Shown here: positions 6,401-59,698 of the stretch, piece after piece
Numbering within the stretch: the first letter of the stretch is position 1
Layout: each line of letters begins with the position of its first letter
Assembly: GCA_014610835.1 (NCBI GenBank)
Contig: QQXM01000145.1
Location: 6,165-70,164, forward strand
Direction: 5' to 3'
Source of the DNA: Erysipelotrichaceae bacterium 7770_A6
GTDB taxonomy: Bacteria; Bacillota_I; Bacilli_A; Erysipelotrichales; Erysipelotrichaceae
Length of the DNA: 64,000 bases
The notes under the pieces: generated by a model
What the model was told of the DNA's origin: nothing
The model's input: the letters and a program-made list of their open reading frames with translations, nothing else
Database searches by the model: none
Position numbers and translations under genes: made by a program

Positions 6401-6437
6401 AATAATGGTGGCGTAAAATTGCTGCCATTATTTTTAT
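6401..6437 (+). terminator. Rho-independent terminator of the rml operon
   Basis: A 12-bp stem (6401-6412 with 6421-6432, one G:T pair) has an 8-nt loop and is followed by a T-rich tail. The next start codon lies at 6439, directly after the tail, so the downstream gene needs its own transcription start. Confidence 0.75.
6423..6431 (+). promoter_or_regulatory. Extended -10 for a leaderless glycosyltransferase transcript
   Basis: TGC-CATTAT (6423-6431) is an extended -10 whose predicted start (about 6438) falls at the ATG at 6439. There is no recognisable -35 and no Shine-Dalgarno sequence. The site overlaps the terminator's descending arm. Confidence 0.4.
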
Positions 6438-6438
6438 T

Positions 6439-7137
6439 ATGAAGAAATTAATTATTATTCCAGCTTACAATGAGAGCGAAAACATTCTAAATACAGTAAA
6501 GTGTATCGAAGAGGATGCACCAGATTTTGATTATGTTGTGATTAACGATTGTTCCAAAGATAATACATTAGAGATTCTTGAGAACAATCATTTAAACTTT
6601 GTGAATCTTCCAGTAAATTTAGGGATTGGAGGGGCTGTGCAGACAGGCTATCAGTATGCATTAGAAAATGGATATGATGTTGCGGTACAGGTGGATGGTG
6701 ATGGTCAACATGACCCTAAGTTTTTAGGTAATCTGTTTGAAACACTTGTAAAAGAAAATGCAGACATGGTCATTGGATCAAGATTCATTAAAAATGAAGG
6801 ATTCCAATCTACTTTTATGAGAAGAGTAGGAATCACATATTTCACAAAATTAATTCATTCCTTAACAGGAAAAACAATTACAGATCCAACTTCAGGATTC
6901 CGTATGTGTAACCGTAGAGTAATTGAATTATTTTCTAAGGATTATCCTAGAGATTATCCAGAACCAGAAAGTATTGTAGCTTTGTTGAAAAGAAAGATGA
7001 AAGTGATTGAAGTTCCTGTACAGATGAAAGAAAGACAGGGTGGTGAATCATCCATCAATGCAAGTAAATCTGTATATTATATGATCAAAGTATCATTGGC
7101 GATTTTAATAGAGAATTTAAGGAAGTATAAAGTATGA
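6439..7137 (+). CDS. GT2 glycosyltransferase, dolichyl-phosphate-mannose-synthase type
   Basis: This cytoplasmic GT-A enzyme probably loads a sugar from a nucleotide donor onto a polyprenyl phosphate or a glycan intermediate. The 232-residue protein begins with MKKLIIIPAYNES. It has the first Asp in VVINDCSKDNT near 35, the DxD region VDGDGQHDPKF near 84 and GSRF near 113. There are no membrane segments, unlike DPM1-type proteins with C-terminal helices; the neighbouring DUF2304 protein (4-nt overlap) may supply them. The start is chosen from the conserved N terminus; there is no Shine-Dalgarno sequence and the ATG follows a -10 by 7 nt, suggesting leaderless translation. Confidence 0.88.
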   Translation: MKKLIIIPAYNESENILNTVKCIEEDAPDFDYVVINDCSKDNTLEILENNHLNFVNLPVNLGIGGAVQTGYQYALENGYDVAVQVDGDGQHDPKFLGNLFETLVKENADMVIGSRFIKNEGFQSTFMRRVGITYFTKLIHSLTGKTITDPTSGFRMCNRRVIELFSKDYPRDYPEPESIVALLKRKMKVIEVPVQMKERQGGESSINASKSVYYMIKVSLAILIENLRKYKV

Positions 7138-7481
7138 CAGTACAGTTAAGAATCATATTATTTATTTTGATCTTGTTAACTTTTGCTTTATTTGTTGATC
7201 AGATAAAACAGAAGAAATTGAAATTACAATATACATTAACATGGATGTTATTACTGCTGTTTATCTTGATTGTAACTGTATTTCCTGGAATTCTTGGCTT
7301 TGTGGCCAATATAATGGGAATTGCATTGCCAATCAATATGATCTTCTTCTTTGGTTTTTTGTTTACCTTAGTGATTATCTATCGATTAACTATGGCGGTT
7401 TCAAAACAATCTGAAGAAATAAAATTCTTAACACAAAAAGTTGCATTACTGGAGAAAGAAATCAATGACAAACATAAATGA
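7134..7481 (+). CDS. DUF2304 small membrane protein, partner of the adjacent GT2
   Basis: This 115-residue protein has three predicted membrane helices (about 5-22, 33-52 and 65-88) and a short basic/acidic C-terminal coil. The family is repeatedly found next to DPM1-like GT2 genes in polysaccharide loci, and a role as membrane anchor or partner is inferred from that. Its ATG overlaps the GT2 stop (ATGA), indicating translational coupling. Its 3' end overlaps the next gene by 17 nt. Confidence 0.75.
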   Translation: MTVQLRIILFILILLTFALFVDQIKQKKLKLQYTLTWMLLLLFILIVTVFPGILGFVANIMGIALPINMIFFFGFLFTLVIIYRLTMAVSKQSEEIKFLTQKVALLEKEINDKHK

Positions 7482-8301
7482 ACAACCTTTGGTGAGTGTA
7501 TGTATTCCATCATATAACAATGCAGATTACATTGATCAGACAATTTCATGTATTTTGAATCAAACATATAAAAACCTTGAGCTAGTTATCTGTGATGATC
7601 ATTCTAAAGATGATACAGTAGAGGTAATTCGAAAATTTGAAGATCCTAGAATTCGTTTATTGATCAATGAAAAGAATCTTGGAATGAGTGGGAACTGGAA
7701 TCATTGTCTTCAGCAATGTAAAGGTGAATTTATTAAGCTGATCTGTGCAGATGATATGCTTGCCTTAGATGCTCTTGAAAAAGAAGTGAATGCATTAATT
7801 GCACATCCAACTGCTTTGCTTGCGGAAAGCGATACACAATTTAGAGACTTAGAAGGAAATACAAAAGGCAGTTATACAAGATATAAAAAATCTGGTTTAG
7901 TAAGTGGGAAAGTCATCGCAAGAGCAGGTCTGTTTTCAAGAAACCTGTTTGGTGCACCATTGAATAATACATTCAGAAAATCTGTATTGGATCAGGTGCC
8001 TGGATTTGATCCTCAATTTAAATATATTTTAGATTATGATTTCTGGGTTAGTATTGCGTGTCTAGGAGACGTGTATATTATTCATGAACCATTGAATTAT
8101 TTCCGCTTGAGAAATGATTCCAATACTGGAAAAGTACTGACAACAGAACAAAAGGCATATGTTGAAGAACATAAGATGTTGCTTAGAAAACATGCATCTG
8201 CATTGCATATTTCAAGTCTTGATTTTGCATTGAGTGTTTTTATTCGAAAATGCTTGAATCTGGGGTCAAGAATCTATTTGCGATTGTTTATTGGAAAGTA
8301 G
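7465..8301 (+). CDS. GT2 family glycosyltransferase (polysaccharide assembly)
   Basis: This inverting GT-A glycosyltransferase has 278 residues. I chose the ATG at 7465 because GGAGAAAG lies just upstream and the protein then begins with the typical hydrophobic strand VSVCIPSYNNADYI; a TTG at 7441 is in frame but less likely. Motifs are CDDHSKDDT near 37, CADDM (DxD equivalent) near 90 and DYDFWVS near 190 for acceptor binding. It probably adds one sugar of the repeat unit on the cytoplasmic side. It overlaps the DUF2304 gene by 17 nt. Confidence 0.88.
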   Translation: MTNINEQPLVSVCIPSYNNADYIDQTISCILNQTYKNLELVICDDHSKDDTVEVIRKFEDPRIRLLINEKNLGMSGNWNHCLQQCKGEFIKLICADDMLALDALEKEVNALIAHPTALLAESDTQFRDLEGNTKGSYTRYKKSGLVSGKVIARAGLFSRNLFGAPLNNTFRKSVLDQVPGFDPQFKYILDYDFWVSIACLGDVYIIHEPLNYFRLRNDSNTGKVLTTEQKAYVEEHKMLLRKHASALHISSLDFALSVFIRKCLNLGSRIYLRLFIGK

Positions 8302-8315
8302 TAAAGGTTTGACGA

Positions 8316-9296
8316 ATGAATATTTTGTATACATTTAATGATAAATTTGTTCCTCAAGTAGCTGCAGCGATTACTTCTGTATGTGAAAATAATAAAAATG
8401 TATTTGAGATTCATTTTTATCTGATGTCTTTAAATGTTTCTCAAGAAAATGAAAAAAAATTAACAGCGTATATTCAGAAGTATGGAAGAGAAGTGTCATT
8501 CATTGAACTGGGTGATATGTCAGAACATTTTGATTTTGAAATTAATACATCTGGATGGAATCCAATTGTGTTGGCAAGGTTGTTGCTAGATAAACTACTG
8601 CCTTCTTCGCTAGATAGAATTTTATATCTCGATGGAGATACGATTGTAAGAGGCTCTTTAGAAGAATTGTATCAGACAGAAATGAAAGATCATGCGATTG
8701 CAGCTAGTTTAGAGCCAACATATGATCATGAACGTAAAGCTTCAATCGGTATGAAAGGGATGCCGTACTACAATGCTGGTGTGCTTCTGATTGATTTAAA
8801 CAACTGGAGAAGCCAGAATCTTGGAAAGAAAATTATTTCTTTCTATAAAGAACATGAAGGAAAACTTTTTTCAAATGATCAGGATGCAATTAATGGAACA
8901 TGTAAAGGACAAATTCTGACTTTGTCTGCTAAGTATAATTATTACAATATATTTGATCAGTATTCGTATCGTTTTTTGTCTAAACTTTGTGATTATCCAT
9001 ATATTGATAAAGATGTATTTGAAGAAGCTAGAAAGCATCCAGTGATTATTCATTATCTTGGAGAAGAAAGACCATGGAGAAAAGGAAATCATCATCGATT
9101 TAAAGATGATTATGACAATTATTTGAATATGACTCCATGGAAGGGTATGAATTATGAAGATGGATGGAACACATATTTTATGGCATGGGATACATTTAAT
9201 GTTCTTACTAAACCATTTCCATCATTGCGCTATCATATTATCAATGCATTAATTCCAGCATTTTTGAATTACAGAGCAAAGAAGGTGAAGAAATGA
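8316..9296 (+). CDS. GT8 family glycosyltransferase (LgtC/GspA-like)
   Basis: This retaining transferase uses a UDP-sugar, commonly UDP-Gal or UDP-Glc in this family. The 326-residue protein starts MNILYTFNDKFVPQ, typical of GT8. It has the metal-binding DxD in LYLDGDTIV near residue 106, YYNAGVLLID near 150 and the NDQDAIN segment near 189, and HYLGEERPW in the C-terminal part, all GT8 landmarks. It overlaps the next gene by 4 nt. The acceptor is unknown. Confidence 0.9.
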   Translation: MNILYTFNDKFVPQVAAAITSVCENNKNVFEIHFYLMSLNVSQENEKKLTAYIQKYGREVSFIELGDMSEHFDFEINTSGWNPIVLARLLLDKLLPSSLDRILYLDGDTIVRGSLEELYQTEMKDHAIAASLEPTYDHERKASIGMKGMPYYNAGVLLIDLNNWRSQNLGKKIISFYKEHEGKLFSNDQDAINGTCKGQILTLSAKYNYYNIFDQYSYRFLSKLCDYPYIDKDVFEEARKHPVIIHYLGEERPWRKGNHHRFKDDYDNYLNMTPWKGMNYEDGWNTYFMAWDTFNVLTKPFPSLRYHIINALIPAFLNYRAKKVKK

Positions 9297-10069
9297 CAGA
9301 AGATATCAAAATATATATTGCGACACATAAAAGCTTTACTCCTCCTAAGAATGATATTTATATTCCTTTGCAGGTAGGTGCGGAAGGTAAGAAAGACTTA
9401 GGCTATTTGAAAGATAATACTGGAGATAATATTTCCAGCATGAATCCATATTATTGTGAATTGACTGGAATGTATTGGATGTGGAAAAATACATCCGCAG
9501 ATATTATTGGGCTGGTACATTATCGTAGATATTTTTATGACAAGTACATCTTTAGTGATCCTAAAAAAATTCTGGATAAAAAAACTATTCAGAATATGAT
9601 GTCTAAGTATGATGTCATTGTCGCACAAAGAGGGTATACATGGTTTAACAAGGTTGGACCTCGCTATGGAAAATACTTGCCGGAAGGAAAAAGTGATATG
9701 AAAGTCACTGAAGAAGCAGTAAAGATAGTCACTCCAGAATATGCAAATGCTTTTGATACTGTGATGAATAGCAATCATTATTCTCAATTCAATATGATGA
9801 TTTGTAGAAAAGATGTATTTGATGCATATTGTGAATGGTTATTTGCAATCTTGAAATATGTGGAAGAACACCTAGAAATACCACTAAGTGAAAGAGAAGC
9901 ATATAATGCAAGAGTATTTGGATTTCTTTCGGAAAGATTATTAAATGTATGGCTGGTAAAGCATTCTGAATTGAAAGTAAAAGAACTGCCAGTCTTAAAT
10001 ACAGAAGAATCTATTGGAAAACAGAAAATAGAATCATGCTTTAAGAAAATATTGAAAGGAGTATTGTAA
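9293..10069 (+). CDS. DUF4422 family (putative glycosyltransferase)
   Basis: This 258-residue protein belongs to the DUF4422 family: KIYIATHKSF at the N terminus, YIPLQVGAEG near 24, CELTGMYWMWKN near 55 and GLVHYRRYF near 75. These proteins occur in capsule and exopolysaccharide clusters and have a GT-A-like fold; transferase activity is inferred. It overlaps the GT8 gene by 4 nt and is followed after 1 nt by glf. That position makes it a candidate for handling the galactofuranose produced by Glf, which is context inference only. Confidence 0.82.
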   Translation: MTEDIKIYIATHKSFTPPKNDIYIPLQVGAEGKKDLGYLKDNTGDNISSMNPYYCELTGMYWMWKNTSADIIGLVHYRRYFYDKYIFSDPKKILDKKTIQNMMSKYDVIVAQRGYTWFNKVGPRYGKYLPEGKSDMKVTEEAVKIVTPEYANAFDTVMNSNHYSQFNMMICRKDVFDAYCEWLFAILKYVEEHLEIPLSEREAYNARVFGFLSERLLNVWLVKHSELKVKELPVLNTEESIGKQKIESCFKKILKGVL

Positions 10070-10070
10070 G

Positions 10071-11189
10071 ATGAAGTACGATTATTTAGTAGTTGGATCA
10101 GGTTTATTTGGATCTATATTTGCACATGAAGCTAAAAAGGCTGGAAAGAGTGTACTGGTTATTGATAAAAGGCCTAATATTGCGGGAAATGTATATACAG
10201 AAGATGTAGAAGGTATCCATGTTCATAAGTATGGCGCACATATTTTCCATACAAATAATCAGGAAGTATGGGAATATATTCAGCAGTTTGCAACATTTAA
10301 CAGATTTACAAATAGTCCTGTTGCGAATTATAAGGGTGAACTGTATTCTCTTCCGTTTAACATGTACACATTTAATAAGATGTGGGGTGTTGTAACACCA
10401 GAAGAAGCACAGGCTAAGATTGAGGAACAAAAGAAAGCTGCCAATATTACAGAACCAAAGAATCTTGAAGAACAGGCGATTTCTTTAGTTGGTAAAGATA
10501 TTTATGAAAAACTAATTAAGGGATATACTGAAAAGCAATGGGGAAGAGAATGTAAAGATCTTCCATCCTTCATTATCAAAAGACTACCTGTTCGTTTAAC
10601 ATTTGATAACAATTATTTCAATGCTTTGTATCAAGGAATTCCAATGGGTGGCTATACAAAGATGGTTGCAAATATGCTGGATGGTATTGAAGTGAGATTA
10701 AATGAAGACTATCTTGCTAAGAAGGATGAATATGATTCGTTGGCAGAAAAAATCATCTATACTGGTCCAATTGATGCATATTTCAATTATTCACTAGGAA
10801 ATCTTGAATATCGTTCTGTTAGATTTGAAACAGAGTTATTGGACAAGCCAAACTATCAGGGTAACGCTGCAGTAAATTACACAGATAGAGAAACACCATA
10901 TACAAGAATCATTGAACATAAATGGTTTGAATTTGGTAAGGATGATCATGGTAATGATATTCCAAAGACTGTGATTTCAAAAGAATATTCATCTGAATGG
11001 AAACCTGGTGATGAACCATATTATCCAGTGAATGATGAAAAGAATGGTGCACTATATGCAAAGTATAAGGAATTGGCAGATAAAGAAACAAATGTAGTAT
11101 TTGGTGGAAGACTTGGTGAATACAAATACTATGATATGGATGCGGTCATTGCTTCTGCATTAGATTGTGTAAAAAGAGAAATTCATTGA
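10071..11189 (+). CDS. glf: UDP-galactopyranose mutase
   Basis: Glf converts UDP-galactopyranose to UDP-galactofuranose using reduced FAD. The 372-residue protein shows the dinucleotide-binding motif VVGSGLFGSIFA at 6-17, VIDKRPNIAGN with the acidic ribose-binding region, HKYGAHIFHT near 52-61 and EKQWGRE near 155. The C-terminal GRLGEYKYYDMD segment near 344 is a Glf hallmark. Its presence implies that the polymer built by this locus contains galactofuranose. It ends the sub-operon; a strong terminator follows. Confidence 0.97.
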   Translation: MKYDYLVVGSGLFGSIFAHEAKKAGKSVLVIDKRPNIAGNVYTEDVEGIHVHKYGAHIFHTNNQEVWEYIQQFATFNRFTNSPVANYKGELYSLPFNMYTFNKMWGVVTPEEAQAKIEEQKKAANITEPKNLEEQAISLVGKDIYEKLIKGYTEKQWGRECKDLPSFIIKRLPVRLTFDNNYFNALYQGIPMGGYTKMVANMLDGIEVRLNEDYLAKKDEYDSLAEKIIYTGPIDAYFNYSLGNLEYRSVRFETELLDKPNYQGNAAVNYTDRETPYTRIIEHKWFEFGKDDHGNDIPKTVISKEYSSEWKPGDEPYYPVNDEKNGALYAKYKELADKETNVVFGGRLGEYKYYDMDAVIASALDCVKREIH

Positions 11190-11199
11190 TAATGAATTT

Positions 11200-11252: not shown

Positions 11253-11257
11253 ATTGA

Positions 11258-11266
11258 TGATATAAT
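11258..11266 (+). promoter_or_regulatory. Extended -10 promoter of the flippase gene (leaderless)
   Basis: TGA-TATAAT (11258-11266) is a consensus extended -10. The predicted start at about 11273 leaves only about 3 nt before the ATG at 11276, and there is no Shine-Dalgarno sequence. Confidence 0.6.
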
Positions 11267-11275
11267 AATAGCTGT

Positions 11276-12718
11276 ATGAAAAATTCATTGGCTAAAAATT
11301 ATATATTTAATTTAATATTTCAAATGTTAACGGTTATTACACCGTTAATTACAACTCCATATGTAGCTAGAGTATTAGGTGCTGTAAATAATGGAATTTA
11401 TGGATATACATTTTCCATCGTTACATATTTTATTCTTTTTGGATCTTTGGGGATTGCGATGTATGGACAAAGGGAAATTGCCTACGTTCAGCATGACAAG
11501 GAAAAACAGGCAAATATTTTCTGGGAATTAGTAACGATTCGTATTTTTACAAATATTATTGCGCTCATTATTTTTTATCTGCTGTTCTGTATGAATGGTG
11601 CATATGCAATATATTACAAAATTTTAATTTTTGAACTTGTTGCGAATGCAATTGATGTGAGCTGGTATTTCATGGGAATAGAAGAGTTTGGAAAACCGGT
11701 TGTGCGCAATATTATTGTAAAAATACTTGGGCTGATCTGTATTTTTGCTTTTGTGAAAACAAAAGATGATTTGTGGAAATATTTATTGATTTACAGTTTA
11801 TCTGATTTTTTAGGGAATATTACATTGTGGCTATATCTTCCAAAATATATTCCGTTTGTTTCATTGAGAAAATTATCATTTAAGATACATTTTTCACCAA
11901 TTATGTCTTTGTTTATTCCGCAGGTTGCAACGCAGGTATATACAGTCTTGGATAAAACAATGGTTGGAAATATCACAAATGATATGGCGGAAGTTGGTTA
12001 TTATGATAATGCCCAGAAAATTGTGAAAGCTTTATTGTGTCTTGTTACCGCGATGAGTTCTGTGATGTCTAGTCGTATTGCCAGTACCTTTGCGGAAGGT
12101 AATAAAGATGATATGAAAGTATATTTACGACAATCGATTCATTTGGTATGGATGATTGCGGTTCCATTTACGCTTGGATTGATTGGAATATCGAGAGCAT
12201 TTGTTCCGTGGTATTTTGGAGAAGGATATGAACCAGTTCGATATTTGATGTGTGCAACAACACCAATTCTTTTAGCAATTGGATTAAGTAATATTACAGG
12301 AATTCAGTATTTGATTCAGGTTGGAGAACAGAAAATCTATACATTTTCAGTTGTTGTTGGAGCAATTGTAAATATGATTTTTAATTTTATTTTAATTCAT
12401 GCAATTGGGACGATTGGAGCAGTCATTTCTACAGTACTGGCTGAATATACAATTCTTGCGGTGCAGTTATATTTCGTACATCAAGATATATCTGTGAAGG
12501 AGTTTTTTAAACCATCGATAAAGTATTTGATTGCGGGAATAGCGATGTTGTTGTGTGTGGTACTAACTGGATATTTCATCACAAATATTTCACTATCTAT
12601 TGTTATTTCTATCATGGTTGGAATTGTTGTATATATTGCAATGTTGTTTTTGCTGAAAGATACATTCTTTTTATTAATATGTAATCAAATCATTTGGAAA
12701 TTTTTGAAAAAGAAATAA
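11276..12718 (+). CDS. Polysaccharide flippase (Wzx, MOP superfamily)
   Basis: This 480-residue integral membrane protein has about 14 hydrophobic segments and the N-terminal pattern of Wzx/RfbX flippases (TPLITTPYVARVLGA, residues 21-35, then YGYTFSIVTYF). Such proteins move polyprenyl-pyrophosphate-linked repeat units across the membrane. The family assignment is secure; the substrate is inferred to be the repeat unit made by the surrounding transferases. No partner Wzy polymerase is visible in the window. The ATG sits about 3 nt after the predicted transcription start. Confidence 0.92.
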   Translation: MKNSLAKNYIFNLIFQMLTVITPLITTPYVARVLGAVNNGIYGYTFSIVTYFILFGSLGIAMYGQREIAYVQHDKEKQANIFWELVTIRIFTNIIALIIFYLLFCMNGAYAIYYKILIFELVANAIDVSWYFMGIEEFGKPVVRNIIVKILGLICIFAFVKTKDDLWKYLLIYSLSDFLGNITLWLYLPKYIPFVSLRKLSFKIHFSPIMSLFIPQVATQVYTVLDKTMVGNITNDMAEVGYYDNAQKIVKALLCLVTAMSSVMSSRIASTFAEGNKDDMKVYLRQSIHLVWMIAVPFTLGLIGISRAFVPWYFGEGYEPVRYLMCATTPILLAIGLSNITGIQYLIQVGEQKIYTFSVVVGAIVNMIFNFILIHAIGTIGAVISTVLAEYTILAVQLYFVHQDISVKEFFKPSIKYLIAGIAMLLCVVLTGYFITNISLSIVISIMVGIVVYIAMLFLLKDTFFLLICNQIIWKFLKKK

Positions 12719-13600: not shown

Positions 13601-13603
13601 AGA

Positions 13604-22648: not shown

Positions 22649-22677
22649 TTGAATCATAGCTGGATTACATTTAAAAT
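22649..22677 (+). promoter_or_regulatory. Promoter of the sortase-LCP unit (leaderless)
   Basis: TTGAAT (22649-22654), a 17-nt spacer and TAAAAT (22672-22677). The predicted start at about 22684 coincides with the ATG at 22685; no ribosome binding site is present. Confidence 0.6.
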
Positions 22678-22684
22678 AATGTCT

Positions 22685-23470
22685 ATGGCAAAGAAAAAAA
22701 GAAAATTAACAAAATTTGGAAGAATATTATCAGATATTGTAATAGTAGTTTGTTTAATGATTGCTGGTTTTTCAGGATGGAATCTTTATAAAGAGTTACA
22801 TGAATATCAAGAAAGCAAAGAAACGTATGAAAAACTGACACCATCAGTTGTGATTGAAAAGCCAAGTACAGATGAGAGCGGCAATACAGTTACTGCACCG
22901 GAATTTGACTGGGGAAAATTGAAAGAAATCAATGGTGATTTTGTTGGATGGATCAGACTGGATGACAGTACAGTTGATTATCCATTTGTACAAGGTACAG
23001 ACAATGAATATTATTTAAGACATTTATTTGATGGAACATATAATAATTCAGGCTGTGTGTTCATGGATGTGAATAACAATAGAGATTTCAGTGATAAGAA
23101 TACAATTCTATATGCGCATAATATGAAGAATGGGACAATGTTTGCTTCTATTGAGAAGTACAAAGATGCTTCGTATTATGATGGCCATAAAGTGATTCAT
23201 ATCTATACAGAAGCAGCGACGTATGATGTTTACCCAGTCGCTGGTATTGTGACAGATGGACAAGATGATTATGTTCGTACGTCTTTTAGCGATGATAATG
23301 ATTTTATGTCTTATGTTAATCGCTTTGTAAGCTCGTCTACATTTACATCTGAACAGTCTATTGAAGCATCGGATCGTATGATTATGTTAAGCACATGTAA
23401 TTATGATAGAAGTGATGGTAGATATGTTCTGATTGGAAAACTAGTTCAAGAGGATAATAATGCACAATAA
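22685..23470 (+). CDS. Class B sortase
   Basis: This 261-residue membrane-anchored cysteine transpeptidase has a basic N terminus, one membrane helix (about 17-38) and a sortase barrel. SrtB features are VDYPFVQGTDNEYYL, GCVFMDVNNN, the catalytic His in LYAHNMKNGTMF near 143, the Cys in TLSTCNYD near 238 and the Arg in SDGRYVLIGKL. It would attach sorted proteins to peptidoglycan. The start at 22685 (MAKKKRKL) is preferred because transcription is predicted to begin there; ATG 22679 is the alternative. It overlaps the LCP gene by 11 nt. No sorting-signal substrate is seen nearby. Confidence 0.9.
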   Translation: MAKKKRKLTKFGRILSDIVIVVCLMIAGFSGWNLYKELHEYQESKETYEKLTPSVVIEKPSTDESGNTVTAPEFDWGKLKEINGDFVGWIRLDDSTVDYPFVQGTDNEYYLRHLFDGTYNNSGCVFMDVNNNRDFSDKNTILYAHNMKNGTMFASIEKYKDASYYDGHKVIHIYTEAATYDVYPVAGIVTDGQDDYVRTSFSDDNDFMSYVNRFVSSSTFTSEQSIEASDRMIMLSTCNYDRSDGRYVLIGKLVQEDNNAQ

Positions 23471-38729: not shown

Positions 38730-39584
38730 TCATTGAGATTGATGATTTTTTTGATGGCTTTTTCGGAATTGTTTTGGTGTCATACCTGTATATTCTTTGA
38801 AGTTTCTTGAAAAATGGGAGCGATCATGATAACCATTGAATTCTGCAATTTCTTGAATTGTCATTTCTGTTGTGAGTAGAAGATGCATGGATTCTTCCAT
38901 TCGGATAGATAATAGTTTTTTTGAAAATGACATGCCTGTAATCTTTTTGAAGCGATAGGAAAGGTAGTCTGGGTGATAATTGAATTCTTTTGCGACCTGA
39001 TCTAACGTAACATCGCGATAGTGATCTCCAATATATTTCATGATTTTACCAAAGATATGATTCTGGATCATTGTGGATCTTGGAATGAGTAAAGTTTCTG
39101 AATGATTTCGATCTAAGAATGAAAATAAGCCTACAAGTAATAAACGGATTATTTTTTCATGATATATATCATCTCTTGGAAATTCATTGAAAATGAGTTC
39201 AAGTGTATAGAGTGCATCATTGCCAATATTAGAAAAATATAAATGTTCTCCACTTGCATCTGGTGCATGTAGAAAATCATACAGGATCCTGCAGTCTGAA
39301 ATCTGGGAATCAAATAGACTGTCAAAAAAGGATGCTTGAAAATCATAGACAAGAAGTGATTCTGTTGCCTGATATTGCATGTCTTCTCTTGAAAATATTA
39401 AATCATGAGACAGTGCATGATATGTTGTTCCGTCTAATGTAATTTCACATTCATTTTGCGGAATGATCATTGTGAAATATGTACTGATACCTTCCGTGGT
39501 AATCGATGCTTGAATATCTTTCATGATCAATAGTATATCATTCGAGTATAAGAATCGGCCATGTTTTAAATTGGAACTGTCCAT
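38730..39584 (-). CDS. AraC family transcriptional regulator
   Basis: This 284-residue protein has an N-terminal cupin-like sensor domain (about 25-165) and a C-terminal AraC DNA-binding domain with two HTH motifs (LDQVAKEFNYHPDYLSYRF near 190; TIQEIAEFNGYHDRSHFSRN near 240, then FKEYTGMTPKQFR). It is divergent from the flavin reductase gene and so its probable regulator. The start is uncertain. ATG 39584 has no SD; a second ATG at 39524 lies 7 nt after an extended -10 (TGA-TATACT, 39532-39540 on -) and could be a leaderless start giving 264 residues. Confidence 0.85.
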   Translation of the reverse strand: MDSSNLKHGRFLYSNDILLIMKDIQASITTEGISTYFTMIIPQNECEITLDGTTYHALSHDLIFSREDMQYQATESLLVYDFQASFFDSLFDSQISDCRILYDFLHAPDASGEHLYFSNIGNDALYTLELIFNEFPRDDIYHEKIIRLLLVGLFSFLDRNHSETLLIPRSTMIQNHIFGKIMKYIGDHYRDVTLDQVAKEFNYHPDYLSYRFKKITGMSFSKKLLSIRMEESMHLLLTTEMTIQEIAEFNGYHDRSHFSRNFKEYTGMTPKQFRKSHQKNHQSQ

Positions 39585-49836: not shown

Positions 49837-50945
49837 CGGATGTAATGTGCTCCTTTGATTTCTAGATCTAATAATCGTTTTCTTTCTTCTTCTGGTAATA
49901 CACTTGTGTATAGCTGGGTGGCTTGAAATTCTATATCACGATATGACTTTGGAATTTCTGCAAACTTTGAAGCAATATGTACTTCTTCTTTGCGTTTTGA
50001 ATGCAGCCATTCTCTACCCTTGTTATTAAATGCCAGGATACGGAGTGTATCTAGCTTTGGTAAGTTCTTTACGTCTTCTTTTGTAATCTGCATCATGATC
50101 TGTACAAGACATCGTCTAATCTTGCTTGCGGTATAGCGATAGTTCACGCACGCCTGTATGAATTCCTGGTATGTTGCACATTTCTCTGCGTTTTTCTTTA
50201 AGTGATTTTCAATGCCTTCACTGATCAAGAAATATTCAGATAACTTAGAAGATGGCGTCATCATTAAATATGTTCGAATATATGGATAGAACATATCCAT
50301 TGTGACATAAGATGAGTGCAACAGTTCTTCTTTCATTGGTGTAGTAATTTCAATGTCTTTCTTCTGCATGCATGCATTTCTAATGGCATATGCACTTGCA
50401 AGTGGCTGAATCGTTTCATCGAAGTATCCTGTATTTCTTTGAATCAATACTGGTTTGATCTTTGTATCTTTGATGGCTTTTAAATAACATACAGCTAAGA
50501 TGTCATTTGGTTCCATTTGTGATGTGAGTAATGAATATGCTTTTGGAAAGGATACACCTGTATCCATGATTTCTTTGATGTGATTGAGATTGACAGGGGT
50601 ATCTGCAATCTCTGACAGGTTTTCAATATTTCCACATTCACTGCCAAATGAAATATAATCTACATCTGCCAGTTTCAATAGATCTACACCACCTTGTGCA
50701 AATTGATGGGCAGCTTGGGTTGCGTAGATGTATGGTAATTCAATAACAACGTCAATTCCATTTTTTACTGCTGCTTCTGCTCTTTTCCATTTATCAATAA
50801 ATGCGGGTTCTCCTCGCTGCATAAAATGAGATGACATGATGGCAATCATGACATCTGCGTTTGTTTTTTTTCTTGCTTGTTCAATCTGATATTGATGTCC
50901 ATTATGAAATGGATTGTATTCGCAAATAATTCCACATGTTTTCAT
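49833..50945 (-). CDS. tmcAL: tRNA(Met) cytidine acetate ligase TmcAL (YlbM)
   Basis: TmcAL makes N4-acetylcytidine at position 34 of elongator tRNA-Met from acetate and ATP. The 370-residue protein begins [16 protein letters not shown] with the nucleotidyltransferase HxGH motif (HNGH), then [20 protein letters not shown] and FGSECGN near 98. It is slightly shorter than the Bacillus protein (about 415), at the C terminus. There is no Shine-Dalgarno sequence; a -10 (TACAAT) ends 6 nt before the ATG, suggesting a leaderless mRNA. Confidence 0.93.
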
Positions 50946-50951
50946 GTCTCT

Positions 50952-50957
50952 ATTGTA
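50952..50957 (-). promoter_or_regulatory. -10 box of tmcAL (leaderless)
   Basis: TACAAT on - ; the predicted start falls on the A of the ATG at 50945. Confidence 0.45.
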
Positions 50958-50999: not shown

Positions 51000-52085
51000 T
51001 TAAAGAATACCGAATGGAGTGTCAGCTACGACCCAGTCAAGAAGAATTTCTTCATTTGGATTGAGTTTGCCAACGAGGTTGTATTCATTGGATACTTCAA
51101 TATCATGACATACGACCCAGAGTTCACCACGGTAATGTTCGAGGTTATCGTTAACAATCAATAGATCACCACGATGTGCTGTAAAGCCTTCCTTTGATCT
51201 TGGTGGAATGGACTGTCCCTTGAAGACAACACGTGTTCCTGAGCTTCTCAGGATGTCATCGTTGCAGTCACCACGCTGGTTGTGCTTGTCGTAATATACA
51301 ATTTGTTTTTCAAGTGGTGTGATGTCATCAACAAGTGTAGCTTTCATTGTGATCTTTGTAAGATCAGTATCAGCCATTGCTTTGAGTTCTTCGTCACTTG
51401 CATATGCATTACCAACTAAGATATCCTGACATAGATTCATCGCAATTAGGTGTCTTAGCTGAAGATCAATTGGAAGATCTCTATGCATTTCCAGTGTTGG
51501 CAAGCCATCAAATACTGGCCATGGACCAAATGTGTTCTTTTCGTTAGAAGAAACGAAAGATGCAACTCTGAAACCTGCATTCTTGTATCTAGATGTTAAT
51601 TCTAGATATCTCTTTAATCCCATACCTGTATGACGCTGTGGGAAGAAGTTGGAACAGAAACACATATTTTCCTGATCTGCACCTGTTTCAATCAAATTTC
51701 TGAAAGCAATGTTGCCAGATGCGTTGTATTCGATCTTGATACCATATGGGTTTCTTGTGATTGCGGCATCTTCTTGAGAAGAGAAATGACCATCTAAACG
51801 GATGATATCAAGTCCAATCTCATGGAAAACGGACAAATCATAAGGTGTTGCACCAATGTGTGCGAATACTTCTGGGTTTGTATCCGCAGATACTGTTAAA
51901 CCACATTCGTGTGCGACCTGACAGAACTTTGAGAAGTTTTTAACGAGTTCCTCTTTGGACTCCTTTACTGATAGGAAACATGTAAAAACTCTCTTGAAGC
52001 CTAGTTCTCCTGCTTTTTTCATGTAAGCAAATACGTCTTCGTAAGTGCTATGTTCTGGATAAACAGATATACCTAATGTTTTCAT
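51000..52085 (-). CDS. MupG/DUF871 family 6-phospho-N-acetylmuramidase-like protein
   Basis: This 361-residue cytoplasmic TIM-barrel glycosidase has MKTLGISVYPEHSTYEDVFA at the N terminus, then GFKRVFTCF, ADTNPEVF near 66 and IRLDGHFSS near 89. The C-terminal small domain (from about 240) includes THRGDLLIVND-like sequence. MupG hydrolyses MurNAc-6P-GlcNAc during cell-wall recycling; substrate specificity here is inferred from family. The start at 52085 is set by the conserved N terminus; an upstream TTG-type extension is unlikely. A TACAAT -10 ends 6 nt before the ATG, so the mRNA is probably leaderless. Confidence 0.85.
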   Translation of the reverse strand: MKTLGISVYPEHSTYEDVFAYMKKAGELGFKRVFTCFLSVKESKEELVKNFSKFCQVAHECGLTVSADTNPEVFAHIGATPYDLSVFHEIGLDIIRLDGHFSSQEDAAITRNPYGIKIEYNASGNIAFRNLIETGADQENMCFCSNFFPQRHTGMGLKRYLELTSRYKNAGFRVASFVSSNEKNTFGPWPVFDGLPTLEMHRDLPIDLQLRHLIAMNLCQDILVGNAYASDEELKAMADTDLTKITMKATLVDDITPLEKQIVYYDKHNQRGDCNDDILRSSGTRVVFKGQSIPPRSKEGFTAHRGDLLIVNDNLEHYRGELWVVCHDIEVSNEYNLVGKLNPNEEILLDWVVADTPFGIL

Positions 52086-52091
52086 AACTCC

Positions 52092-52097
52092 ATTGTA
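52092..52097 (-). promoter_or_regulatory. -10 box of the mupG-like gene (leaderless)
   Basis: TACAAT on - ; the predicted start falls on the A of the ATG at 52085. GGAG in between is only 2 nt from the ATG, too close to act as a Shine-Dalgarno. Confidence 0.45.
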
Positions 52098-52807: not shown

Positions 52808-53303
52808 TATCATGTATTATGATTCACCAATTGGTAGAATGGTGCTTGTTTCAGATGGGGAAGGACTTTGTGGTGTGTATTTTGTTGGGCAGAAGTATGA
52901 TCGTGCTGGAGTTGATGATGTCATTGAACAGGAAGATGAATACTTATTGGATGCGAAGCGATGGCTGGATATTTATTTCCAGGGAAAAGTACCTGACTTT
53001 CTTCCAAAACTTCATATGATTGGAAGTGAATTTCAATTAGAAGTATGGAATCAGTTATTACAGATTCCTTATGGTCAAACAACAACGTATGGTTCTATTG
53101 CGTCTCACTGTAAAAAAGAACATATGTCTGCGCAGGCAGTTGGCGGTGCGGTTGGCAGAAATAAAATTTCTATTATTGTGCCTTGTCATAGAGTCATCGG
53201 CAGTGATGGATCATTAACAGGATATGCTTCTGGATTGGATAAGAAAAAGCAATTGTTGCGTCTAGAGGGTATAAAAAACAAGGAGATTCCTGTAAAATAC
53301 TAA
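52797..53303 (+). CDS. ogt: Methylated-DNA-[protein]-cysteine S-methyltransferase
   Basis: This 168-residue suicide repair protein accepts the methyl group of O6-methylguanine on Cys. It has EVWNQLLQIPYGQTTTYGSI near 82-101 with the Tyr and Arg-finger region, the active site IIVPCHRVIG near 126 and GYASGLDKKKQLLRLEG at the C terminus. It overlaps the AlkA-like gene by 11 nt, forming a two-gene alkylation-repair operon. The length matches Ogt proteins (160-175). Confidence 0.95.
   Translation: MANNIMYYDSPIGRMVLVSDGEGLCGVYFVGQKYDRAGVDDVIEQEDEYLLDAKRWLDIYFQGKVPDFLPKLHMIGSEFQLEVWNQLLQIPYGQTTTYGSIASHCKKEHMSAQAVGGAVGRNKISIIVPCHRVIGSDGSLTGYASGLDKKKQLLRLEGIKNKEIPVKY
53293..53298 (+). promoter_or_regulatory. 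-10 box before the rhodanese-TtcA gene (leaderless candidate)
   Basis: TAAAAT preceded by TG; the predicted start is at about 53305, 2 nt before the ATG at 53307. It overlaps the end of the ogt gene. Confidence 0.4.
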
Positions 53304-53306
53304 ACT

Positions 53307-54443
53307 ATGAATGAAATAACAATTGATGAATTAAAGAAGTTAGATGCCAGTACATATGTATTGGTGGATATTAGAGAAGAAGAGAAAGTATTAAAGAATC
53401 CGATTGACCATAGTGTTGTTCTATCAATGGATGAAGTTGAAAAGCATGCATTTGATCGTGACAAGAAGATCGTTGTTGTGTGTGATCGTGGAAAATTGAG
53501 TATTCCTGTTGTACTTGCTTTGTGCGATCAAGGATATGATGCGGTGAGTCTGCATGGTGGATATGTTTCCATTGTCATGGATAAAATGAAAGAAAATAAT
53601 TCCATACAATTTGCGGAAAAAGTGGAAAGAAGTATCATTAAAACATATCGTAAACAGATCTGGTCAAAGTTTACAAAGGCGGTACGTGATTATGAATTGA
53701 TCAAAGAAGGGGATCGGATTGCGGTTTGTATTTCTGGTGGAAAAGATTCGATGCTGATGGCAAAGTGCTTTCAGGAATTGCATAAGTATTCTGAGATCCA
53801 TTTTGATGTGAAGTTTGTGGTCATGGATCCTGGATATTCTAAAGAGAATCGCTTGATCATTGAAGATAATGCAAGAAAGTTGAATATTCCTATTGAAATC
53901 TTTGAAACGGATATCTTTGAGAATGTATTCCATATTGATAAGAATCCTTGTTATATCTGTGCAAGAATGCGTAGAGGACATTTATATAACTATGCTAAAA
54001 ATATAGGATGTAATAAGATTGCATTAGGTCATCATTTTGATGATGTGATTGAAACAATTGTGATGTCTATGTTATATGGTGCACAGATTCAGACAATGAT
54101 GCCTAAATTACATTCCAATCATTTTGAAGGTATGGAAGTCATTCGTCCTTTATATCTTGTAAGAGAAGATGATATTAAAGCATGGGCAAAACATAATAAC
54201 CTGTACTTTATCCAATGTGCATGTAAATTTACAGACACATGTTCTTCAGAGGCGTGCTTAACGCGTCCTCGTTCAAAACGTGTTGAAGTAAAGAATCTGA
54301 TTCGTGACTTAAAAAAGACAAATCCATATGTGGAACAGAATATCTTCAAGAGTGTTGAAAATGTCAGTTTGAAGACAATCATTGCCTATAAAGATGATAA
54401 AGAAAAGCATCATTTCTTAGATACATATGATGATGTGAAATGA
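53307..54443 (+). CDS. Rhodanese - TtcA-like tRNA thiolation ATPase fusion
   Basis: This 378-residue protein has an N-terminal rhodanese domain (about 1-95, active-site Cys in VVVVCDRGKLS near 59) joined to a PP-loop ATPase. The latter has AVCISGGKDSMLMAK near 139, a CxxC pair in NPCYICARM near 215, GHHFDDVIET near 243 and further Cys in CACKFTDTC near 308. TtcA/TtuA enzymes thiolate tRNA using an iron-sulfur cluster; the fused rhodanese may deliver persulfide sulfur. There is no Shine-Dalgarno sequence. It follows ogt by 3 nt. Confidence 0.87.
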   Translation: MNEITIDELKKLDASTYVLVDIREEEKVLKNPIDHSVVLSMDEVEKHAFDRDKKIVVVCDRGKLSIPVVLALCDQGYDAVSLHGGYVSIVMDKMKENNSIQFAEKVERSIIKTYRKQIWSKFTKAVRDYELIKEGDRIAVCISGGKDSMLMAKCFQELHKYSEIHFDVKFVVMDPGYSKENRLIIEDNARKLNIPIEIFETDIFENVFHIDKNPCYICARMRRGHLYNYAKNIGCNKIALGHHFDDVIETIVMSMLYGAQIQTMMPKLHSNHFEGMEVIRPLYLVREDDIKAWAKHNNLYFIQCACKFTDTCSSEACLTRPRSKRVEVKNLIRDLKKTNPYVEQNIFKSVENVSLKTIIAYKDDKEKHHFLDTYDDVK

Positions 54444-55764: not shown

Positions 55765-55787
55765 GGGCATAATATTGCCCTTTTTTT
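55763..55787 (+). terminator. Terminator of the aminopeptidase gene
   Basis: Stem AAGGGCA / TGCCCTT with loop TAATAT and a T run. Confidence 0.85.
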
Positions 55788-56120
55788 GATTTTCTTGAAC
55801 GGAATGGTATTCATACACAAAGAGCTGGTAATGGAAAAGAATGTGTAGATATATTGGAAAATAGTGAGGAACATGCATTTGATTTTGTGTTTATGGATAT
55901 TCAGATGCCGATAATGAATGGCTATGAAGCAACAAAATTCATTCGTAAATCGCAGAGAAAAGATATCCAGAATATTCCTGTTGTTGCGATGAGTGCGGAT
56001 GCATTTGCGGAAGATGTTGAAGCTTGTTTGAAAGCTGGCATGAATGGTCATATTTCAAAACCAATTGATTTTAAAGAAGTGATGAAAGTGATTGAAAAGT
56101 ATTGTTCAACAAATCAATGA
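55788..56120 (+). pseudogene. Relic receiver (REC) domain of a hybrid histidine kinase
   Basis: The frame reads DFLERNGIHTQRAGNGKECV and continues through the phospho-acceptor loop FVFMDIQMPIMNGYEA, the Thr/Ser-position AMSADAF and the Lys in GHISKPID to a stop at 56120. It is the C-terminal three quarters of a receiver domain of the kind ending hybrid kinases. It starts abruptly next to the aminopeptidase terminator, lacks the first Asp/Glu strand and has no start codon with a ribosome binding site. The rest of the kinase is missing. TTG 55854 could start an 88-residue product, but this is unlikely to be functional. Confidence 0.78.
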
Positions 56121-56131
56121 GACGCTATAAT
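56102..56131 (+). promoter_or_regulatory. Promoter of the YitT-family gene (leaderless)
   Basis: TTGTTC (56102-56107), an 18-nt spacer and TATAAT (56126-56131); the predicted start is at about 56138 and the ATG at 56141. The -35 lies inside the relic receiver gene. Confidence 0.6.
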
Positions 56132-56140
56132 AGTTGCGTT

Positions 56141-56986
56141 ATGAAACGATATCTGAATGTAGTATTAGGCTCTGTGTTATTGAGCGTTGGTATCTGGCTG
56201 TTTGTGACTCCAAATGGAATTAACTTTGGAGGAATGATTGGTACAGCGCAGTTAATTGAGCGCTTGCTTCGTATGTTGATACATATTCCAGCAAATATCA
56301 ATGTGCTTGGTATTATTAACTTTTGCTTGAATATTCCTTTATTCTTTTTTGCATTGAAAATCATGCATAAAGATTTCTGCGTAAAAACAATTCTTTCTTT
56401 GGTGATTCAAACAGTGTTGTTATCTGTTTTGCCGCCATTAAAACAGCCCTTAGTGAATGATATGATACTGAATACGATCTTTGCTTCAGCAATTTGTGGT
56501 ATTGGGGTTGGAACTGCATTGAGTGGCAGTGGATGCTGCGGTGGTATTGATATCGCCACGATGTGTATTGTGAAAAAACATCCTGATTTTAAAACAGGAC
56601 AGTTATCTATTTATTTCAATATTGTATTGTTTGGTATTTGTCTGTTCTTTGATGATTTGAAGACAATTATGTATTCTGTTTTGTTTGTTGCATTGTTATA
56701 TACGATTGCTGATCGTTGTCATGCGCAGAATATTAATGTAACTGCTTTGATTTTTACAAAAAATCACGATTTGAAGAAGACAATTATGTCGACGATGGGA
56801 CGTGGCGTTACGTATTGGAATGGGAAAGGTGCATATACAGAAACAGATACTGAAATCTTGTATGTTGCCATTAACAAATATGAAGTGCAGCAATTGAATG
56901 AATTGATTCATGAAGCTGATCCACATGCATTTGTGACTTTATCACAAGGATCTATGATTCATGGAGGGTTTGAAAAACGATTATAG
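56141..56986 (+). CDS. YitT family (DUF161/DUF2179) membrane protein
   Basis: This 281-residue protein has five or six N-terminal membrane helices (about 7-200) with VTPNGINFGGMIGTAQLIE near 21 and GSGCCGGIDIATMCIVKKH near 128-146. A C-terminal cytoplasmic DUF2179 domain follows at about 205-275 (GRGVTYWNGKGAYTETD). The family is widespread in Firmicutes with no settled biochemical role. I chose the ATG at 56141 because the predicted transcript starts about 3 nt upstream and the first helix follows at once; the longer frame from 56102 overlaps the relic receiver gene. Confidence 0.85.
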   Translation: MKRYLNVVLGSVLLSVGIWLFVTPNGINFGGMIGTAQLIERLLRMLIHIPANINVLGIINFCLNIPLFFFALKIMHKDFCVKTILSLVIQTVLLSVLPPLKQPLVNDMILNTIFASAICGIGVGTALSGSGCCGGIDIATMCIVKKHPDFKTGQLSIYFNIVLFGICLFFDDLKTIMYSVLFVALLYTIADRCHAQNINVTALIFTKNHDLKKTIMSTMGRGVTYWNGKGAYTETDTEILYVAINKYEVQQLNELIHEADPHAFVTLSQGSMIHGGFEKRL

Positions 56987-57014
56987 AAGACATGGAATGA
57001 TCTGTGTCTTTTTT
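56987..57014 (+). terminator. Terminator of the YitT-family gene
   Basis: Stem AAGACA / TGTCTT (56987-56992 with 57005-57010) followed by T residues. Two direct repeats AGTTCGCTC(A/G)AAA at 57030-57054 lie just downstream, of unknown role. Confidence 0.6.
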
Positions 57015-57067
57015 ATTTTGAAGATAAATAGTTCGCTCAAAAGTTCGCTCGAAAAAAATGGATACAA

Positions 57068-57093
57068 AAAAACCGCATAAATAAGCGGTTTTT
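57068..57093. terminator. Bidirectional terminator beside tRNA-Thr
   Basis: AAAAACCGC (57068-57076) pairs with GCGGTTTTT (57085-57093). It can end the tRNA transcript on - and read-through on +. Confidence 0.75.
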
Positions 57094-57107
57094 AGAGCTT
57101 AGTACAG

Positions 57108-57180
57108 TGCCGACTATAGGACTTGAACCTACGACCTATGCGTTACGAGTGCATTGCTCTACCAACTAAGCTAAGTCGGC
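57108..57180 (-). tRNA. tRNA-Thr (anticodon CGT)
   Basis: A complete cloverleaf reads on -: acceptor GCCGACT / AGTCGGC with discriminator A, D-arm with AGTTGGTAGAGC, anticodon loop CTCGTAA (anticodon at 57145-57147) and T-arm with loop TTCAAGT. CCA is not encoded. The base pair closing the anticodon loop appears as an A-C mismatch (positions 31-39), otherwise all stems pair. Confidence 0.93.
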
Positions 57181-57207
57181 AGTGCAAATATTATAACTGA
57201 TTTTTTC

Positions 57208-58092
57208 TTAATGTACAAATTTATCACATGGATGTTTGCGATAGGCTAAAGGTGTACAGCCATATTCTTTCTTAAACATGCGATTGAAATATGATTGTTG
57301 ATCAAAACCACAGGAAGAAGAGATTTGAGAAATGGACTGCTCTGTACTTCTTAAAAGATTAGATGCAATTTCTAAGCGATATAGATTTAGGAAATCAATG
57401 GGTGAATGTTTCGTATATAGATTAAACATTCTTGAACATTTTGATATTGATACATTTCCGTATTCTGCAATATCACGCAATGATATCTTATCTGCATAAT
57501 TCTTGTATATGTATGAAGTCATTTTATTTAACAGTTCCATATCATCTAAATGATGTGGATCAACTTCTGGAATATGTGTTTCTAATCGTTCATAAATCAA
57601 TTGCAGGATTGTATATGCATCAGACATCATGCCAAGCATGTATGCACTTGATCGCATAGCGTCTAACTGCTGGATGTGATGAAATGCATTGATGAGTGAA
57701 GAATGCTGATCAAAGATCATATAGTCAATGCTTGTGTTTTCAACAATTGGTTTTGCATAATTGGCATAAATCAATGGATCATTGGAATAAATAGATGGAT
57801 GAATCAATACAACATTAAATTTACAATATTCTGATTCGTTTAATGTTGATGAGTGTAATTGATTTGCATTCACAAATATGATTTGACCTTTTGTTACTTT
57901 TACCTGTTCATCATTAATGTTGTAATAGAGATATCCATCTAATATTTCCATCATTTCAATTTCTTCATGAATATGCTGGATGGAATGAAAGTTAGAATCT
58001 GGAAGCATTTCTTCTTGTTTTACAAAAATCTTTAAGTTGTCGTCTGTGTAATGGACGTTTGATGTGTAGTTTCTATATAAATTCAGTGTCAT
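57208..58092 (-). CDS. AraC family transcriptional regulator with cupin sensor
   Basis: This 294-residue protein has an N-terminal cupin domain (about 25-120; [20 protein letters not shown]) and a C-terminal AraC domain with two HTHs ([20 protein letters not shown] near 215 and [20 protein letters not shown] near 262, then [15 protein letters not shown]). It is probably a metabolite-responsive activator; the target is unknown. It is divergent from rubrerythrin. The start at 58092 lies 6 nt after TATAAT and has no Shine-Dalgarno sequence, so it is a leaderless candidate. A longer frame from 58119 would run through the promoter. Confidence 0.87.
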
Positions 58093-58098
58093 GACAAA

Positions 58099-58104
58099 AT
58101 TATA
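58099..58104 (-). promoter_or_regulatory. -10 box of the AraC gene (leaderless)
   Basis: Consensus TATAAT on - ; the predicted start is the A of the ATG at 58092. Confidence 0.55.
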
Positions 58105-58188
58105 CAAAAAATAAAGCAAAAATCTACTATTATTTATCTAACAATGCTAATATTATATTACCAACAAGTCAAAGAGGAGGACTTACAT

Positions 58189-58728
58189 ATGACAAATAAA
58201 TACGCAGGTACAAAAACTGAAAAGAATTTACGTGAAGCATTTGCTGGCGAATCTCAGGCTAGAAATAAATATACATACTTCGCTAGCGTTGCTAAGAAGG
58301 CTGGCTATGAACAGATTGCTGCTTTGTTCTTGAAGACAGCTGAAAATGAAAAAGAACATGCGAAACTATGGTTTAAGGCCTTAGGCGAATTAGGTGATAC
58401 AGAAGCTAACTTGAAGGCTGCTGCTGAAGGCGAAAACTATGAGTGGACAGATATGTATGATCGTATGGCACAGGAAGCTGATGAAGAAGGTTTCCATGAA
58501 CTTGCTGAACAGTTCAGAGGTGTAGGTGCTATTGAAAAGCATCATGAAGAAAGATATAGAAAACTTCTTGCAAATGTAGAAGAAAAGAAAGTATTTGAAA
58601 AGAGTGGCGTTACAGTTTGGGAATGCAGAAACTGTGGTCATATCGTAATTGGTACAAAGGCACCAGATGTTTGCCCAGTATGCAAGCATCCACAGTCTTA
58701 CTTCGAAGTGCATGAAGAAAACTATTAA
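58189..58728 (+). CDS. Rubrerythrin (peroxide reductase)
   Basis: Rubrerythrin reduces hydrogen peroxide in anaerobes using a diiron centre and a rubredoxin site. The 179-residue protein has the ferritin-like diiron motifs [15 protein letters not shown] near 14, [10 protein letters not shown] near 50 and EKHHEERY near 117, and a C-terminal rubredoxin domain ([12 protein letters not shown] and CPVCKHP). The start at 58189 follows AGAGGAGG by 8 nt. It is 11 nt from desulfoferrodoxin, making an oxidative-stress operon. Confidence 0.95.
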
Positions 58729-58739
58729 CAGGTGAGAAT

Positions 58740-59114
58740 ATGAAATTTTATAAGTGTGAAGGATGCGGTAATTTTATTACATTCTTAAATGAAAAGAGTG
58801 GCTGTACTCCAAAATGTTGTGGAGAAACAATGAATGAAGTGATTCCTAACACAACAGATGCTGCAAATGAAAAACACGTTCCTGTGATTGAAAAGAATGG
58901 GAATGTTGTAAAAGTAACTGTTGGTTCTGTAGAACATCCAATGGTTGAAAAACACTACATCCAATGGATCATTCTTGAAACAAAGAACGGTTTCATGAAG
59001 CATGATCTTCATCCAGAAGAAAAGCCAGAAGCTACATTCACATTGAATGATGGTGATGAAGTCGTTGCAGCATATGAACTATGCAACCTGCATGGACTTT
59101 GGAAAGCTGAATAA
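58740..59114 (+). CDS. dfx: Desulfoferrodoxin (superoxide reductase, two-iron type)
   Basis: This enzyme reduces superoxide to peroxide, which rubrerythrin next door then removes. The 124-residue protein has an N-terminal desulforedoxin-like iron site (CEGCG at 6-10 and CCGETM near 29). The catalytic centre II has His ligands in EKHVPVIEKNG near 44, EHPMVEKHYI near 64 and CNLHGLW near 115. One extra Cys precedes the CC pair, as CTPKCC. A terminator with a GAAA tetraloop follows. Confidence 0.95.
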   Translation: MKFYKCEGCGNFITFLNEKSGCTPKCCGETMNEVIPNTTDAANEKHVPVIEKNGNVVKVTVGSVEHPMVEKHYIQWIILETKNGFMKHDLHPEEKPEATFTLNDGDEVVAAYELCNLHGLWKAE

Positions 59115-59121
59115 AACAAAC

Positions 59122-59143
59122 AAAACCACCGAAAGGTGGTTTT
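59122..59143. terminator. Terminator with GAAA tetraloop
   Basis: A perfect 9-bp stem AAAACCACC / GGTGGTTTT with loop GAAA, between the convergent dfx (+) and CYTH (-) genes. Confidence 0.88.
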
Positions 59144-59663
59144 ACTTTTGTCTAGTTTGCTGCCAGTATGCTGCCATGGATTGATTTGGCTGATTTGTTA
59201 CATCATCATTGAGATAGTCGCTCAGATCAACCTGCTTTGGATCAAATGCATTTGCTTCTTCTTCACTCTTGAATTCAATTTCAGCATAATAGAATTCTGA
59301 AGGCAGTCCTTCATCAACATGACTGACTTCTAAGTGATGTCCATCTTTTAATAAATATGTGTTTCTTAGTTTATTGATGAGTGGTAAGCCAATGAGATCT
59401 TCTAATTCTTCAAACTTTTCTTCTGGAATTTCCATTTCGATTTCTTTTCTTGTGAGTAATCCTGAAGATTTGAAGCAAAGAATGAATTCATCTTTTACTG
59501 GCTGATCTTTGGATGAATAAATCATTTTTTCTTCGCGGATGCGTACAGTTGGATGTGTTGCAATATATCCTTGACGCATTTGCTGAGAGAATAGCAATGG
59601 TAGATCAGGAAAACCATTTACCATCCATTTTCTTTCAATTTCTAATGGTGTTTTATTTGTCAT
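59142..59663 (-). CDS. CYTH domain protein (triphosphatase/adenylate-cyclase-like fold)
   Basis: This 173-residue protein starts TPLEIERKWMV, the ExExK signature that names the CYTH tunnel fold. RIREEKMIYSS, FILCFKSSGLLTRKEIEMEI and HLEVSHVDEGLPSEFYYAEI supply the other charged strands. Related enzymes hydrolyse inorganic triphosphate or similar. It is the last chromosomal gene before the integrated element. The -10 TAGAAT (59670-59675 on -, with a weak TTCATT 17 nt upstream) ends 6 nt before the ATG and no SD is present. Confidence 0.88.
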   Translation of the reverse strand: MTNKTPLEIERKWMVNGFPDLPLLFSQQMRQGYIATHPTVRIREEKMIYSSKDQPVKDEFILCFKSSGLLTRKEIEMEIPEEKFEELEDLIGLPLINKLRNTYLLKDGHHLEVSHVDEGLPSEFYYAEIEFKSEEEANAFDPKQVDLSDYLNDDVTNQPNQSMAAYWQQTRQK

Positions 59664-59669
59664 ATTTAT

Positions 59670-59698
59670 ATTCTATCTTGTTTTCGATAACGAATGAA
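59670..59698 (-). promoter_or_regulatory. Promoter of the CYTH gene (leaderless)
   Basis: TTCATT (59693-59698), a 17-nt spacer and TAGAAT (59670-59675) on - ; the start is predicted at the ATG. Confidence 0.4.

Follow-up and report, generated by a model that had tools for sequence, protein, structure and literature searches.

A probable minority class of leaderless genes, with a -10 box close against the start codon, in an Erysipelotrichaceae bacterium

Does an Erysipelotrichaceae bacterium, in which most genes appear to rely on ordinary Shine-Dalgarno (SD) sites, also transcribe some of its genes from the start codon itself? The question is raised by a stretch of 64,000 nt from the genome of Erysipelotrichaceae bacterium 7770_A6 (the whole of which is referred to here as the window), in which a preliminary description had named ten genes as leaderless or possibly so, each lacking an SD site and each with a -10-like hexamer at a seemingly fixed distance before its ATG. 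Our analysis makes it very probable, as judged from sequence statistics, that this genome contains a minority leaderless class, the mRNAs of which would begin at or within 3 nt of the ATG, beside genes led by SD sites. A peak in the spacing between box and start codon, the missing SD sites, several promoter-like features and the position of the genes at the head of their transcription units are observed directly.

The source genome comprises 2.28 Mb in 233 contigs and has a GC content of 35 %. The genome-wide sample covered 857 kb of it (38 %) and 755 genes, including those of the window. Genes were called by a simple hexamer score, and their starts were chosen by ourselves rather than taken from a curated annotation. 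For blind tests, each gene was given one start by a rule that ignored the -10 box, namely the best SD start or else the first ATG. The strict motif was TANAAT, ending 6-9 nt before the ATG, while the preliminary description had used the looser TANNNT; dinucleotide shuffles of the upstream regions (60 shuffles for the TANAAT test) provided the chance level. The sequences nearest to tmcAL of the window come from uncultured Erysipelotrichaceae, followed by Breznakia and Traorella, which places the source in Erysipelotrichales or close to it. The segment 60001-64000 of the window has a G+C fraction of 0.433, compared with approximately 0.34 elsewhere in the window.

Seven of the ten named genes are well supported, and an eighth, the AraC-type gene at 39524, is a plausible leaderless case:

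11261..11278, + strand: wzx-like flippase; TATAAT (11261-11266) with TG extension, 9 nt, ATG 11276
22672..22687, + strand: sortase; TAAAAT (22672-22677), 7 nt, ATG 22685
39522..39537, - strand: AraC-type regulator; TATACT (39537-39532) with TG extension, 7 nt, ATG 39524
50943..50957, - strand: tmcAL; TACAAT (50957-50952), 6 nt, ATG 50945
52083..52097, - strand: mupG; TACAAT (52097-52092), 6 nt (GGAGTT), ATG 52085
56126..56143, + strand: yitT; TATAAT (56126-56131), 9 nt, ATG 56141; YitT_membrane profile aligned from residue 4
58090..58104, - strand: AraC-type regulator; TATAAT (58104-58099), 6 nt, ATG 58092
59661..59675, - strand: gene named CYTH in the preliminary description; TAGAAT (59675-59670), 6 nt, ATG 59663

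The observation that four genes of the - strand (tmcAL, mupG, the AraC-type gene at 58092 and CYTH) share a spacing of exactly 6 nt holds. The boxes of wzx, the AraC-type gene at 39524, sortase and CYTH score 6.9, 5.8, 5.7 and 5.1 bits and are equalled in 0.6, 1.8, 2.4 and 3.8 % of shuffles, respectively. A terminator-like hairpin followed by a T run lies just upstream of tmcAL (z -3.8). The product of CYTH gave no Pfam match, and the gene, present in at most four of 60 relatives, was dropped as a candidate for a conserved case.

The alternative that survives best, although it is improbable, is that the starts were wrongly placed, the true SD-led start lying elsewhere, or that a second, more distant promoter produces leadered mRNAs. 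In-frame alternatives are indeed available in several genes, including an ATG at 22679 in sortase and an open frame that reaches 52142 in mupG, and leadered and leaderless transcripts of one gene can coexist. Nevertheless, Pfam profile alignments begin at residues 1-11 of the chosen starts of many genes (holA, dnaE, mnmA, Maf, tmcAL and others), and such matches from or near the first residue support these starts. Within the window, Polysacc_synt aligns from residue 5 of the wzx product and MupG_N from residue 4 of the mupG product, while residue 1 of the tmcAL product coincides with position 1 of HIGH_NTase1 and is also the start residue of its orthologues. Moreover, 42 of the 46 genes with a 6-7 nt spacing lack an SD site, as a match of at least 5 nt was found in only four of them, compared with 95 of 174 genes with a spacing of 18-35 nt (p 5e-9).

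The second alternative, that in a genome of 35 % GC the A+T-rich sequence before genes yields -10-like hexamers by chance and that those near an ATG were simply picked, has its strongest footing in the looser motif. TANNNT occurs 6-9 nt before the start of 49 SD-less genes against 26.4 +- 5.0 expected, which means that about half of these matches are due to chance, and boxes such as those listed above turn up in 0.6-4 % of shuffled upstream regions. Any one gene taken alone is a weak case, whereas the excess across the genome is not due to chance. With the strict motif, 29 of 206 SD-less genes carry a box at 6-9 nt under the blind start rule, compared with 4.0 +- 1.7 in the shuffles (maximum 7 in 60), and repeated shuffling gave an expectation of 3.4 with a maximum of 8. 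When the window is left out the signal is unchanged (25 observed, 3.2 expected). No excess is present among the SD genes (n=516; 4 observed, 7.9 expected), out-of-frame ATGs near gene starts show no TANAAT peak at 6-9 nt, and there is no peak in a relative of only 28 % GC (G037). Chance is thus already refuted for the class and, highly unlikely as a general explanation, may account for single genes only. The genome-wide distance comparison proposed in the preliminary description, carried out here on 38 % of the genome, gives a positive answer.

The distance itself proved less rigid than first described. Counts of TANAAT before in-frame ATGs near gene starts are 27, 19, 3 and 11 at 6, 7, 8 and 9 nt, fall to 0-6 at 10-16 nt and then rise to a wide second maximum that sets in at about 18 nt and represents the leadered genes. 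The peak at 6-7 nt and a smaller group at 9 nt therefore stand, whereas a strictly fixed spacing does not. Boxes at 8 nt are rare (3, compared with 19 at 7 nt and 11 at 9 nt; Poisson P ~2e-4 against the mean of the two neighbours), and a simple rule based on distance does not account for an excess at 9 nt that is missing at 8 nt, where counts stay at background. Raw counts of TATAAT and its spacing to any ATG, with no gene filter, were too noisy and were dropped. The class amounts to about 3.5 % of genes when estimated from the excess with the strict motif and blind starts, and to about 6.5 % when all starts are admitted (49 candidates among 755 genes), so that approximately one gene in 15-30 appears to be leaderless in this bacterium.

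For two of the genes named in the preliminary description, a leaderless start is not supported:

6394..6440, + strand: hairpin before GT2 6439; 3' arm runs into the ATG; -19.7 kcal/mol, z -5.2
53293..53309, + strand: rhodanese-TtcA-like gene; TAAAAT at 8 nt, inside the upstream gene; ATG 53307

GT2 has no acceptable -10 box, its sole candidate being a weak CATTAT (-1.0 bits, equalled in 16 % of shuffled upstream regions) for which chance accounts. The strong hairpin, T-rich in its 3' arm, is situated in the interval between GT2 and the preceding gene, which ends at 6386. Since the 3' arm extends into the ATG of GT2, a transcript that reads through the hairpin would have this start codon masked. 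The rhodanese-TtcA-like gene has its ATG 3 nt past the stop codon of a co-directional upstream gene (TAAactATG), and its box stands at the 8-nt spacing that shows no genome-wide excess, for which reasons translational coupling is probably likelier here than a leaderless start. As an account of the whole class, the least credible alternative is translational coupling to an upstream gene, or re-initiation after it, which would explain the missing SD sites with no promoter at the start codon. Of the other SD-less genes, 65 of 177 do follow a co-directional gene at a distance of no more than 20 nt. Genes whose box stands at 6-7 nt, however, are by gene layout first in their unit in 20 of 22 cases (307 of 495 among SD genes; p 0.006) and many diverge from their neighbour, leaving no upstream ribosome.

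The surroundings of the boxes resemble those of promoters. The base preceding the ATG is a pyrimidine in 93 % of the genes with 6-nt spacing, and in 21 of 24 class genes compared with 106 of 182 other SD-less genes (p 0.006). A pyrimidine is the usual context before a transcription start at A, and its presence here is as expected, if only as an indirect sign, for transcription starting on the A of the ATG. A TG extension at the right offset was found in 12 of 42 class genes, well above most other offsets, and in 33 of 83 leadered promoters. On the other hand, matches to TTGACA at 15-19 nt were not enriched in the class (mean 3.12 compared with 3.01 in shuffles; a good -35 in 2 of 42 genes, not above shuffles), and leadered promoters showed only a slight surplus (3.30 compared with 3.03). 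The -35 element is so either not needed in the class or too degenerate to be recognised; extended -10 promoters can work without one. Start codons at 6-7 nt (46 ATG, 6 TTG and 3 GTG) did not differ clearly from those with strong SD sites (333, 34 and 25), and some of the TTG and GTG cases are background. The arrangement at tmcAL, CYTH and some other genes raised the suspicion that these promoters directly follow the terminator of the preceding gene. Terminator-like hairpins within 45 nt of the -10 box precede 12 of 54 putative leaderless genes and 10 of 92 leadered genes (p 0.09); this is suggestive only, and compact junctions of terminator, promoter and ATG may favour leaderless starts. The class is functionally mixed and includes dnaE, holA, mnmA, RNase HIII, Maf, a pseudouridine synthase, a SpoU methylase, transporters and regulators. 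In both holA, which encodes the delta subunit of DNA polymerase III, and dnaE (L142:7106), the box lies 6 nt before the ATG.

We propose that a promoter of the sigma-A type, often with an extended -10 element (TGnTANAAT), is set close against the start codon. Transcription would then start on the A of the ATG where the box is 6-7 nt away, or 2-3 nt earlier where it is 9 nt away. The resulting mRNA, with AUG at its 5' end, would be read with no SD site, most likely through direct binding of the 70S ribosome and initiator tRNA as in other bacteria, the accepted route to a 5' AUG (reviewed in PMC9031893), while most of the remaining genes would use ordinary SD sites. That two initiation modes coexist, as the preliminary description had suggested, is well supported at the sequence level by the statistics within this genome, together with two orthologues in a genome of the same genus.

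These orthologues encode a cation-efflux protein (43 % identity; box at 7 nt) and fumarase (57 %; box at 6 nt) and have kept the box within otherwise diverged upstream regions, although few orthologues could be compared. In that same-genus genome (G029; 182 genes), the blind-start TANAAT test gave 3 genes against 0.4 expected, whereas three genomes of another family in the same order, pooled (463 genes), gave 1 against 1.5 expected; the difference between the source genome and these three is significant (p 1e-5). The leaderless signal is hence strong here, weaker in one genome of the same genus and absent from three genomes of another family of the order, a useful contrast that rests on small samples. 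When 29 neighbourhoods of tmcAL from the same genus were pooled, none of 90 genes had a strict box at 6-9 nt and six had the looser TANNAT, which indicates that the class varies between species. The idea that the tmcAL box is conserved in the genus was rejected, as it mostly is not, many of the 29 relatives having TATCAT or TAACAT approximately 20-30 nt upstream. Even so, tmcAL, mostly leadered in the genus, has TATAAT or TATATT 6 nt before the ATG in Breznakia pachnodae and one Traorella, and the mupG orthologues of two genomes from that other family (G041 and G050) are SD-led, with AGGAGG-type or AAAGGAG sites. Such differences among relatives imply that single genes switch mode. In a wider set of tmcAL loci (L007-L080, from many Bacilli and some Clostridia), the distance from -10 box to start codon peaks sharply at 15-18 nt, in 39 of 74 tmcAL genes and in other genes too, with a GGTGAT-type SD site directly after the box; these leaders of about 9-11 nt consist of little beyond the SD site.

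Loss of ribosomal protein S1 was considered as a cause of the leaderless class and rejected. Among 60 genomes from the genus and the order, none reached the rpsA cut-off for a full-length S1, and loss of S1 consequently does not separate the two families. A long S1-like match was seen in three of these 60 genomes only, all of one genus, and S21 in 57. A possible scenario, to which we give slightly less than even odds, is that a leaderless class, missing from the neighbouring family, was acquired or retained in this lineage, with single genes such as tmcAL and mupG switching mode and a few such as holA being leaderless across distant Firmicutes. If so, comparison of sister families would be a natural way to ask which conditions favour leaderless starts, and closely related lineages could be used to study why such starts are gained and lost.

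The preliminary description presented leaderless genes as a surprise for Firmicutes, and this is too strong. Zheng et al. 2011 (PMC3160421) predicted leaderless genes for 56 out of 209 genomes of Firmicutes, mainly in Lactobacillales and Mycoplasma, and RNA-seq has shown 8-9 % of mRNAs or operons to be leaderless in Streptococcus agalactiae, S. pyogenes and S. pneumoniae (PMC4448216, PMC6431027, PMC6212727). The TA-led genes of Zheng et al. resemble those described here in having a TAtAAT and a TG peak just before the ATG, in lacking SD sites and in forming a minority (mean 4.2 %, range 2.4-16.6 %). Their account is, however, centred on Lactobacillales and Mycoplasma, and its text does not name Erysipelotrichales. 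In the one paper of the searched library that brings together leaderless genes, promoters and Erysipelotrichi, the lineage is named in a reference alone. In enterococci (Enterococcus faecalis and E. faecium), fewer than 1 % of mRNAs are leaderless (PMC7724050), which indicates that the leaderless share varies strongly among Firmicutes; RNA-seq found nine leaderless transcripts in Mycoplasma gallisepticum. The class also matters for annotation, because programs that expect an SD site before each gene will place these starts wrongly.

The leaderless mRNAs of S. agalactiae all begin with AUG, 90 % of them at its A (see the streptococcal studies cited above), and for a leaderless promoter of the pneumococcus, luciferase activity was the same whether or not a ribosome-binding site had been added. 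In streptococci, 5' ends have been mapped by RNA-seq, with reporter tests in the pneumococcus, whereas the evidence presented here is from sequence. RNA-seq shows holA to be leaderless in S. agalactiae, and here its predicted leaderless start has the form TGATATAAT-6 nt-ATG (L159:1076); both enterococci likewise have a leaderless gene for a subunit of DNA polymerase III, as the present bacterium would. The kind of class described is already known from streptococci and mycoplasmas, and the new part is the lineage in which it occurs.
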